The notes under the pieces were generated by a model that saw only the letters and a list, made by a program, of their open reading frames with translations, was not told the origin of the DNA and ran no database searches. This document shows, one piece after another, positions 14,038 through 40,570 of a stretch of DNA of 48,621 nt. Numbering within the stretch: position 1 is the stretch's first letter; every line of letters begins with the position of its first letter. Location of the stretch: positions 1 to 48,621 of the forward strand of contig QHYI01000139.1 in the NCBI GenBank assembly GCA_003223245.1. The letters run 5' to 3'. The DNA comes from Acidobacteriota bacterium (lineage in GTDB: Bacteria; Acidobacteriota; Terriglobia; Acidiferrales; UBA7541). A program made the position numbers and the translations under genes.

Positions 14038-14093
14038 ACCTTCGTTTGGTTCTGCGCCCTTCTTGATGGAGTGCCACGATCATACCAAGGTAT

Positions 14094-14127
14094 CCGAGTC
14101 AGGGAGGCTTTCGTCTCTCTGACTCGG
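14094..14127. repeat. Strong hairpin upstream of the CPBP gene
   Basis: Thirteen-base arms CCGAGTCAGGGAG and CTCTCTGACTCGG pair with one G-T type mismatch around an 8-base loop. No T-run follows, so this is a hairpin of unknown role, perhaps a factor-independent barrier or a repeat end. It lies between the CPBP start and the ADOP 3' end. Confidence 0.5.
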
Positions 14128-14197
14128 TTGATGGATGACGTAGCCGGTCATTCGGCGGCTGCGCAAGAGCGTCGCTCTTACGCATTGCGGGGTGGTG

Positions 14198-14272: not shown

Positions 14273-14483
14273 TACACGCAATGCTCGACTCACATTCCCA
14301 TCGTTCCCTATTCATATCTCAACGCGACCATCGGATCGACTTCCATCGCCCTACGCCCGGGAATGTAGCTTGCCAAGGCTGCAACGCCTGACAGAACTAG
14401 CGAAACGACGATAAACGTCACCGGGTCCGTGGGTTTCACTCCAAAAAGCAAACTAGACAAGAGGCGCATGAATCCCAGCGCGC

Positions 14484-14563
14484 CAATGATTCCGGCCCCC
14501 AGTCCTAGCAAAGCCGGCGTCAGTCCTTGGCCGATCACACGCCGGAGCACCTCAGCCTTTTGT
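14484..14563. repeat. Left arm of an 80-bp perfect inverted repeat
   Basis: Perfect reverse complement of 14609-14688 over 80 bases, with 45 bases between (14564-14608). This arm encodes part of the C-terminal ADOP domain in the correct sense on the minus strand ([20 protein letters not shown]). Confidence 0.9.
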
Positions 14564-14608
14564 GCGCCGAGCGCCATGCGAATTCCGATTTCGCGCGTGC
14601 GCCGCGAG

Positions 14609-14688
14609 ACAAAAGGCTGAGGTGCTCCGGCGTGTGATCGGCCAAGGACTGACGCCGGCTTTGCTAGGACTGGGGGCCGGAATCATTG
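14609..14688. repeat. Right arm of an 80-bp perfect inverted repeat
   Basis: Inverted copy of 14484-14563. It replaces the natural ADOP coding sequence here and creates the premature stop at 14683-14685. Confidence 0.9.
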
Positions 14689-16893
14689 CGTGCTCACGTG
14701 CGAGAGCGGCAGGCTGCTGTCAACCTCGCTCGCAGCGCTGCGCACGGCCGAGGCAAGCGTGCGCGGGTCAGTAGCAGTGCGCAGCTCAAAATAGCAGCCG
14801 CCGCTGGTAAGCGGGACGTAAACAATCGGGACAATCATGCGGCGCAACGAGTCGTATTTCGTGTCGGCTACCACCCCGACGATTTCCCAAATTTTCGCGA
14901 TATCGTAATGATTACCGAATGCGCCGCCACTCGATCCCGAGCCGCCTCCCTTAACGATCAGTTTTCCTAGCGGATTTTCCTTTGGGTAGTACTGCTCGAC
15001 AAATGCCTTGTTGACCAGAACACGGATCGGGACAGCAGCGCCAGATGCATTTAGAGCCCTGGATGAGCTTCGAGCATTTGTATCCTGTTTCTGTGCTCTC
15101 TCGGCTGCGCTCGCTTGGTCAAAGTCAGCCGATGTGAACATGCGCCCTTGGAGGATCGGGATGTGCATGGTGGTAAAAAACTCCGGGCCAACCGCGAGCA
15201 TATTGGCCTCAACGCCACCCTTTTGCGGCTGGTCTTCAAAGTGTATGGTTTCTGTCCATCGTCCTCCGTCGAGCAGCGCGTCCGAAGCATAAGTCACGGA
15301 AGCCACGCCGGGAAGCGCCGCGAGGCGCTGGCGCAATTCATTGTAAAGGTTTTCGATTTGCGCGTCCTTGTACCCGAGCAATGTGGGGTCAACCTCGAAG
15401 ATCAGGATGTTGCGCGTGTCGAATCCTGGGTTGATGTTGCGAAGGTTTTCGAGCGTACGCATCACTAGTCCTGCGGCCACAAGCACCAGGACCGACAAGG
15501 CTACCTGCGCGACCACTAACGCGTCACCGAGATGAAAGCGTCCCACGCGTGCGGCGTTACCTGACAAACTGGAAGTGTTTTCCTTGAGCGTGGGCGCTAA
15601 ATCGACGCGCACGCTGCGCAACGCGGGAGCAAGACCAAACAAAATCCCGGTCGCGACCGAGACTCCAAGCGCAAAGGACAGAACGCGATAGTCTGGCCTG
15701 AGGACGTACGGAAAGTGCCCGCTTGATCCGGCCGTAACCAAAGCCGTGATCGCGTGTACTCCCCAATACGCGAAGACAATTCCGCACACGCCGCCCAAGA
15801 CCGAAAGCAAAATGCTTTCGGTGAGAAGCTGGCGCACAATTCTTGTGCGGCCTGCGCCTAGCGCCAGTCGCACGGCTATCTCTTTCTGGCGAGCTCGGCC
15901 GCGCGAAAGCAACAATCCCGCAACGTTTGCGCAGGCAATCAGCAAAATAACTCCCACCGCGACCATCAAAAAGCAAAGCATCTTCGAAAGCGTCCCGCGC
16001 TCGCCAACCAAGCCTTCTTGGGCGCGTGTCAGAAAAATCTTGGGCTCAGAGACTTGGGAAAACGTTTTTCCGGCGTCCAGAACCTCGTTGCGAAACACCA
16101 GACTGGCCGCAGTCTGCGCCTGATCGAGAGAAACGCCGGGCTTGAGCCTCGCGATGATGACGAGCCACCAGTTGGTCAAACCGTCAATGTCGTGCCCCCA
16201 ATCGATATTCAGTCGCGGGAGCATGGCAATCGGCAGCCACAAGTCCTGAGCCTTGCCCGGCGATAGATTCGTGAAGCTCCGCTCCGCCACGCCAACAATC
16301 GTGAACGGAATGTTATTCAGGAGAATTGTGTGCCCCAGAACCGCACGGCTGCCGCCAAAAGCGCTTTTCCAGTAGGCATAGCTGAGTACGGCTACCGGAG
16401 AGGCGGACGGAGAATCGTCATTTGGTCCGAGGGTCCGGCCGACGGCAGCATTGACATCCAGCGTCGAGAAGTAGTCGCCGGAAACGATTTCGCCCTGCAC
16501 CATTGTCGCCGGGCCCTTGCCACTGAGGTTCAGAGCCGCCGGGCCAGCGAAAGCGGACACGCCGGAAAATGCATTCGTCTGCGAACGAATGTGCCTGAAA
16601 ATTGGGAGCGGGAACGAGCAGCCGGAAGGCCCGGAAATACCCGATTCGCCGCAATCGCTAAATGAGCTGTATTCGCCGTTGAACGACATGTGCCGCGCAC
16701 GCCACTGCAGGATGACGAGCCCATTCGGGTTCACTACAGGCAAGGAACGAAGCATCACGCCGTCAATCAAGCTAAAAATCGCAGTATTCGCGCCGATTCC
16801 CAGGGCCAGGATCAGGGAAGCGACCGCCGTGAAGCCCGGCGACTTGACCAATGTTCGAAGACCGTGACGAATATCTTGAAACGCGGTATCCAC

Positions 16894-39129: not shown

Positions 39130-39182
39130 TTCCCCTATGCACTGGAGACGTTTCCCATCGAATTTTCTTGTTTCTCTTTGTA

Positions 39183-39204
39183 GGGGCGCAGCAGGCTGCG
39201 CCCC
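39183..39204. repeat. Palindromic element between argF and argG
   Basis: A perfect 10-base stem (GGGGCGCAGC and GCTGCGCCCC, loop AG). Flanks TTTGTA before and CGTTTGGC after recur with the element at 40474, so the unit is about 38 bases. It could form a strong mRNA hairpin in the arg transcript. There is no T-run. Confidence 0.75.
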
Positions 39205-39237
39205 CGTTTGGCGATACCTGATGGCAAGCGAGGAATT

Positions 39238-40461: not shown

Positions 40462-40473
40462 TGGCATTTTGTA

Positions 40474-40495
40474 GGGGCGCAGCATGCTGCGCCCC
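40474..40495. repeat. Palindromic element between argG and argH
   Basis: A fully self-complementary 22-base palindrome (GGGGCGCAGCA and its complement). It differs by one base from the core at 39183 and shares the flanks TTTGTA and TTGGC. The 109-base gap to argH holds it and no ORF. Confidence 0.75.
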
Positions 40496-40570
40496 AGCTT
40501 GGCAAAACGTCAACTACCGGGCACTCCGTCGAAGGACTGAAAACTCAAAACGGACGACTGACAGCTCAGA

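Follow-up and report, generated by a model that had tools for sequence, protein, structure and literature searches.

Short microhomologies at the switch points are common in template-switch mutations, although they are not obligatory. In four-point notation the orders 1-4-3-2 and 3-2-1-4 both make a single inverted repeat, and most such events in great apes are described as following these two patterns (PMC7954356). Template switching also generates new hairpins in RNA genes (PMC8794818), and in Escherichia coli it causes the so-called quasipalindrome mutations, in which existing imperfect repeats are perfected (PMC7202029). Comparable joins are known as products of amplification: inverted sequences with intervening deletions represented more than 85% of 475 chimeras formed by phi29 amplification and were often primed by short matches (PMC1855051).

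Here we describe a perfect inverted repeat that interrupts a permease gene in the draft genome of a soil acidobacterium. The repeat is probably the trace of a real, gene-killing mutation which arose when DNA synthesis switched templates twice. It is a new example of a mutation type known from eukaryotes and, in the form of quasipalindromes, from E. coli (PMC7202029). In a narrow literature search no report was found of a gene of an uncultured bacterium being broken in this way.

Structure of the Inverted Repeat

The window, i.e., the whole stretch of 48,621 nucleotides that was analysed, comprises bases 1-48621 of contig C57 in the draft genome G000 (6,311,796 bases, 237 contigs, 95.8% complete). 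The sole inverted repeat of at least 30 nt reported in this window is a pair of 80-nt arms at positions 14484-14563 and 14609-14688, which are separated by a spacer of 45 nt. As stated in the original prediction, the arms are exact reverse complements (80/80), and the pairing ends sharply with a mismatched flanking base pair on each side. In 100 random sequences as long as the window, generated by an order-2 Markov model and screened with spacers of up to 1000, the longest perfect inverted repeat was 16 nt at maximum and 13.3 nt on average, and the 80-nt repeat is therefore not due to chance.

The 95% upper bound of 3.7% for the divergence of the arms (0 differences in 80 positions) does not give a firm age, because template switching can also perfect arms that were nearly perfect before (PMC8794818, PMC7954356). 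Of the earlier proposal that a perfect copy implies a recent or artificial event, the perfection of the arms holds, but recency is not strictly proven. The 45-nt loop folded no better than its shuffles (z-scores of 0.22 and -0.63), so that no hairpin seed was identified for the event. The hairpin region was not found a second time in G000, where a search returned, apart from the region itself, only short matches to family members around the spacer, and no exact match to a 35-base stretch spanning source arm and spacer was found in viral contigs.

Two further repeated elements were observed in the window. An intergenic stretch of about 80 nt at 14086-14168 has two partial copies in G000 (C159:393-470 and C202:5012-5053) and similar pieces in the genomes G018, G011 and G029, and possibly represents a dispersed small element. 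Positions 39177-39217 and 40468-40508 form a direct repeat of 41 nt (88% identity) with a GC-rich hairpin core, which we take to be REP-like.

The Interrupted Permease Gene

The inverted repeat is located in a gene encoding a duplicated permease of the ADOP family. Its parts, all on the minus strand, are the following:

14308..16893, minus strand: ADOP-family duplicated permease gene, putative pseudogene; TIGR03434 matches both parts, with one in-frame TGA between them
14689..16893, minus strand: native upstream part of 735 codons, ending in ...LSHVST (homologue alignment, translation); 14689 is the putative switch point 1
14609..14688, minus strand: inverted 80-nt copy between the putative switch points 2 and 3, carrying the TGA (80/80 complementary to 14484-14563)
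14564..14608, minus strand: native spacer and hairpin loop, encoding 15 residues and aligning in frame; 14608 is the putative switch point 4
14484..14563, minus strand: native source arm, encoding 26 residues in frame (TIGR03434 match, homologue alignment)
14308..14483, minus strand: native 3' end of the gene up to the stop codon (TIGR03434 match to position 803 of 803)

Taken alone, the N-terminal part (736 aa) reached a TIGR03434 score of 664.4, which exceeds the cut-off of 622.3, and matched profile positions 2-662, while the C-terminal part, an ORF of 89 aa, matched positions 715-803. Pfam assigned two MacB_PCD stretches and one FtsX domain to the N-terminal part; in the C-terminal part only positions 35-118 of the 120 FtsX positions were found and the second FtsX domain is thus incomplete.

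Translation from 14760 to 14308 gives a single frame with one TGA ahead of the final stop. This TGA is the second codon of the inverted copy, in agreement with the prediction that the premature stop was made by the copy. Together with one native base the 80-nt copy forms 27 codons in the frame of the gene, which is consequently closed by a single TGA; retention of the frame across the patch had a one-in-three chance. No further stops were seen among the native codons, neither in the 735 that precede the break nor in the 99 that follow it. Judged from the domain matches, the broken gene lacks the start of its last FtsX domain. The lost codons, which in homologues include runs such as FFGLLALVLACVGLYGLLSY, probably encoded the first membrane helix of the second FtsX domain. 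Readthrough of the stop would not bring this helix back, which is why the gene is called a pseudogene here.

The genome as a whole harbors a very large set of ADOP/MacB-type permeases, with 171 matches to the ADOP query (E-value up to 1e-3) in 6.3 Mb. Some of these matches contain single stops, e.g., C187:4598-6229 and C73:30318-31124.

Homologues and Break Points

Eighteen homologues, nine loci from G000 and nine from relatives, were selected as open frames of at least 650 aa, one per locus. Between the equivalent of T735 and the S of the motif SRRTREIG all 18 contain 42 codons, compared to 27 in the broken gene, and both flanks of the inverted copy align in frame to the homologues (the C-terminal part from the start of the spacer in 18/18). 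The locus is thereby composed of an inverted copy of nearby sequence between two native flanks with the source retained; the gene gained 80 nt in exchange for about 125 nt. Because the left arm encodes ADOP sequence in frame and the right arm replaces the 42 codons found in 18/18 homologues, the left arm is regarded as the native source and the right arm as its copy. The alignment thus bears out the earlier description of the right arm as an inverted copy of downstream gene sequence. Replacement of family codons had also been foreseen correctly, but for a segment of about 45 codons; its size is 42 codons in all 18 homologues.

A comparison with sister genomes for the intact version had been proposed. 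The linker codons are present in 18/18 homologues, but a full-length orthologue of the gene was not found by protein or DNA searches of the relatives, and a first scan of the genome contigs for an orthologue had yielded no relative. In a protein search of 61 genomes (G000, 35 of its genus and 25 others; E-value up to 1e-200, near full-length matches only) the best full-length match showed 56% identity. A DNA search of the 36 genus genomes (G000 and the 35 others) returned partial matches, the strongest in-gene match being contig C124 of G030 with 75% identity over 555 nt of the 5' part. When the N-terminal 401 aa were compared to 12 of the 35 genus genomes, positions 949-1422 of this contig (G030:C124:949-1422) were 74% identical to residues 21-178; they belong to a short open frame (201 aa) close to the contig end, which does not cover the broken region. 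This may be a piece of an ADOP orthologue, perhaps itself broken. For the C-terminal part the best match outside G000 among those listed was 69% identical (G018:C128). As no full-length orthologue was found, the ancestral junctions can be deduced from homologues only.

For the break points 33 homologue rows were found, of which four were dropped by a first-residue filter; one of the remaining 29 (L062) has no ADOP C-terminus. At the first break the codon is CAA or CAG in 15 of the 29 rows and the copy starts with CAA, and at the second break the codon is GTN in 27 of the 29 rows and the copy ends with GT. Without being a proof, these residues would be compatible with microhomologies of 2-3 nt.

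We also considered that the hairpin is a functional element or an invertible switch under selection. The hairpin of the transcript would be very stable (-215.4 kcal/mol, z-score of -22.7), but the perfect copy is by itself sufficient to account for this stability. The 80-bp arms might recombine and thereby flip the 45-nt spacer; such a flip would leave the 42 missing codons unrestored, and no recombinase was detected among the seven neighbouring proteins scanned. Elsewhere in G000 the region is represented only by the short family matches mentioned above. None of the 18 homologues contains the hairpin, which is not an independent test, because they had been preselected as open frames of at least 650 aa. 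Since the stability is explained by copying, a flip restores nothing and a recombinase is lacking in the scanned neighbourhood, a functional hairpin or switch is scarcely credible and was rejected.

Proposed Mechanism

We infer that the patch was produced by two template switches in the cell. Read in the sense of the gene, synthesis would have left its template after codon 735 and used the opposite strand of sequence located further downstream in the gene as its template for 80 nt. It would then have switched back to the original strand, at a point about 125 nt past that of departure, and proceeded along the native source. An identical product would be obtained on the other strand if the nascent strand folded back, copied 80 nt and re-aligned (type 3-2-1-4), so that the event would be denoted 1-4-3-2 in gene sense and 3-2-1-4 on the other strand. 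The outcome of either course would be a perfect hairpin of 80 bp with a loop of 45 nt, in a gene that has lost the FtsX start and reads TGA at the second codon past the break. The fold-back (template-switch) pattern postulated originally is hence retained as far as the template switch is concerned; a plain fold-back with a single switch is insufficient, because two switches are needed and about 125 nt are skipped. The length of the patch counts against the switch, as 80 nt exceed the 59 bp of the largest pattern mentioned in the study of RNA genes (PMC8794818).

The same join could be a chimeric molecule which was formed during library preparation or whole-genome amplification, by strand displacement and re-annealing of the 3' end, and was assembled into the draft, while the gene of the organism is intact. 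The ADOP locus shows an inverted join with an intervening deletion, as amplification chimeras do (PMC1855051), its perfect copy fits a fresh artefact, and the draft is fragmented, with 237 contigs and, among those retrieved, one of only 207 bp. A single chimeric switch, however, would lead to the copy followed by an inverted spacer. At the ADOP locus the spacer has its native orientation and the native strand is regained after 80 nt, so that artefact molecules would need two junctions 80 nt apart in one molecule, and G000 would have to contain such a molecule twice, in view of the second locus described below.

Survey of the Genome and a Second Scar

In total, 1,814,698 bases of G000 were screened, consisting of 100 stretches and the window; as about 24 kb were counted twice, this corresponds to about 1.79 Mb or 28% of the genome. 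The stretches derived from contigs C1-C27 and from contigs with ADOP hits and the survey is therefore no random sample; repeats extending across the ends of stretches would be missed. Inverted arms of 60 bp or more with an identity of 95% or more were defined as scars. Eight inverted matches were detected in G000, among which, beside that of the window, one belonged to this class. No scar was present in the controls, which comprised 0.30 Mb from G018 and G011 and 0.48 Mb from 80 loci of other genomes. At the rate of G000 the chance of finding none in the controls is 0.42, and the control sequence is too short for the difference of two versus zero to mean anything.

Repeats of other kinds were noticed in the screened loci. 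Locus L048 (G000:C9) contains overlapping direct copies at 930-1249 (170 bp at a step of 150 bp, 97.6% identical), and clustered inverted repeat matches with 81-91% identity are located at 4430-5862 of L241 (JAKQOW010000052.1).

The second scar is situated on contig C80 of G000 (locus L111) and affects a gene for an MFS transporter. Its arms of 123 bp (1783-1905 and 2344-2466) match in 121 of 123 positions and are separated by a spacer of 438 nt. The order of the parts is that of the ADOP locus, namely upstream gene, inverted copy, spacer and source. The MFS gene is interrupted by the right arm, and the source is composed of the end of the neighbouring gene and the last bases of the MFS gene. 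The native parts are up to 91% identical to orthologues, the nearest of which (82-91%) are found on records of metagenome-assembled genomes of Acidobacteria bacterium gp2, e.g., QHYH01000086.1 and QHYJ01000060.1. Among 80 loci from other genomes, 78 have a linker in this gene that is in frame and free of stops; the exceptions, L224 and L239, show 50% and 59% identity and have a linker that is out of frame with a stop. The linker comprises 186 nt in 21 of the 80 loci, including the eight best-ranked. In G000 its place is taken by 124 nt, which consist of the 123-nt copy and one native base and shift the frame; about 185 nt of the MFS gene were lost. The copy starts with GAG, and the first break reads GAG in G030 and GAA in G018, which amounts to microhomologies of 3 and 2 nt. 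At the return point the sequences are GGTCGCGG in G030 and GGCCGCGG in G018, which share 5 and 8 contiguous nt, respectively, with the source.

At the two mismatches between the MFS arms the base of the source is present in 4/4 and 2/4 relatives and that of the copy in 0/4 at both, which points to the copy as the arm that changed. These changes fit a real and somewhat older event, although copying errors would look alike. The MFS scar, with two differences that both appear to lie in the copy, argues against a fresh artefact. The original prediction had left open whether the ADOP repeat represents a template switch or an amplification or assembly chimera, and the second, diverged scar shifts the balance to a real event without deciding the question.

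The occurrence of two scars within 1.8 Mb of one assembly is possibly a property of that assembly. Their frequency, two repeats in about 1.79 Mb, is far below the value of about one junction per 22 kb of phi29-amplified DNA (PMC1855051), a comparison which is weak, because the latter figure is for reads and assembly would filter most junctions. Altogether we consider a chimeric molecule unlikely, but it is an explanation to be reckoned with.

The scars might also be real rearrangements for which break repair was responsible and not a switch inside one replication fork, the possible routes being microhomology-mediated break-induced replication (PMC2621351) and the end joining of a small inverted piece of DNA. 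Routes of this kind likewise rely on microhomology and produce inverted patches accompanied by deletions, and the MFS spacer of 438 nt seems rather long for a within-fork event. Both scars, however, regain the original strand near the departure point and keep the source, which is explained most simply by a local switch, and we regard break repair as very improbable.

Discussion

Double template switching in the cell is thus the reading that we favor for the ADOP locus, which would then provide a clear case of a gene broken in one step by backward copying of the nearby strand. It also illustrates that a perfect hairpin can arise without any function. With a second scar and intact relatives on record, the mechanism can be checked. 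Perfect inverted repeats in draft genomes need a check of the reads before they are taken for elements.

It is a speculative and rather improbable extension that this lineage of soil acidobacteria often makes long double switches of 80-123 nt, leading to several fresh gene-breaking scars per genome. If this was true, large permease families would lose members to pseudogenes and the scars would be a direct count of switching in uncultured bacteria.

Compared with the ADOP family TIGR03434, both parts of the gene match the profile, over positions 2-662 and 715-803; the difference is the interruption, with which 42 codons including the FtsX start disappeared. Chimeras of multiple displacement amplification share with the locus the inverted join, the deletion and short matches at the junction, but have one junction (PMC1855051), whereas there are two here and the original strand is regained. 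The quasipalindrome mutations of E. coli are likewise a case of bacterial template switching at inverted repeats. They perfect imperfect repeats that exist already (PMC7202029), whereas here the repeat was apparently made anew and the lost sequence is deduced from homologues. Template-switch hairpins in RNA genes resemble the locus in that a new perfect stem and its loop originate in one step (PMC8794818). RNA genes gain stems by this process, the largest pattern mentioned being 59 bp long, while here a protein-coding gene was destroyed. The four-point template switch (PMC7954356) corresponds to the locus in its fragments, from L to 1, inverted from 2 to 3 and from 4 to R, and in the retention of the source. 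It was described there for great apes, whereas the present scars are bacterial, with 80 and 123 nt copied and about 125 and 185 nt lost.
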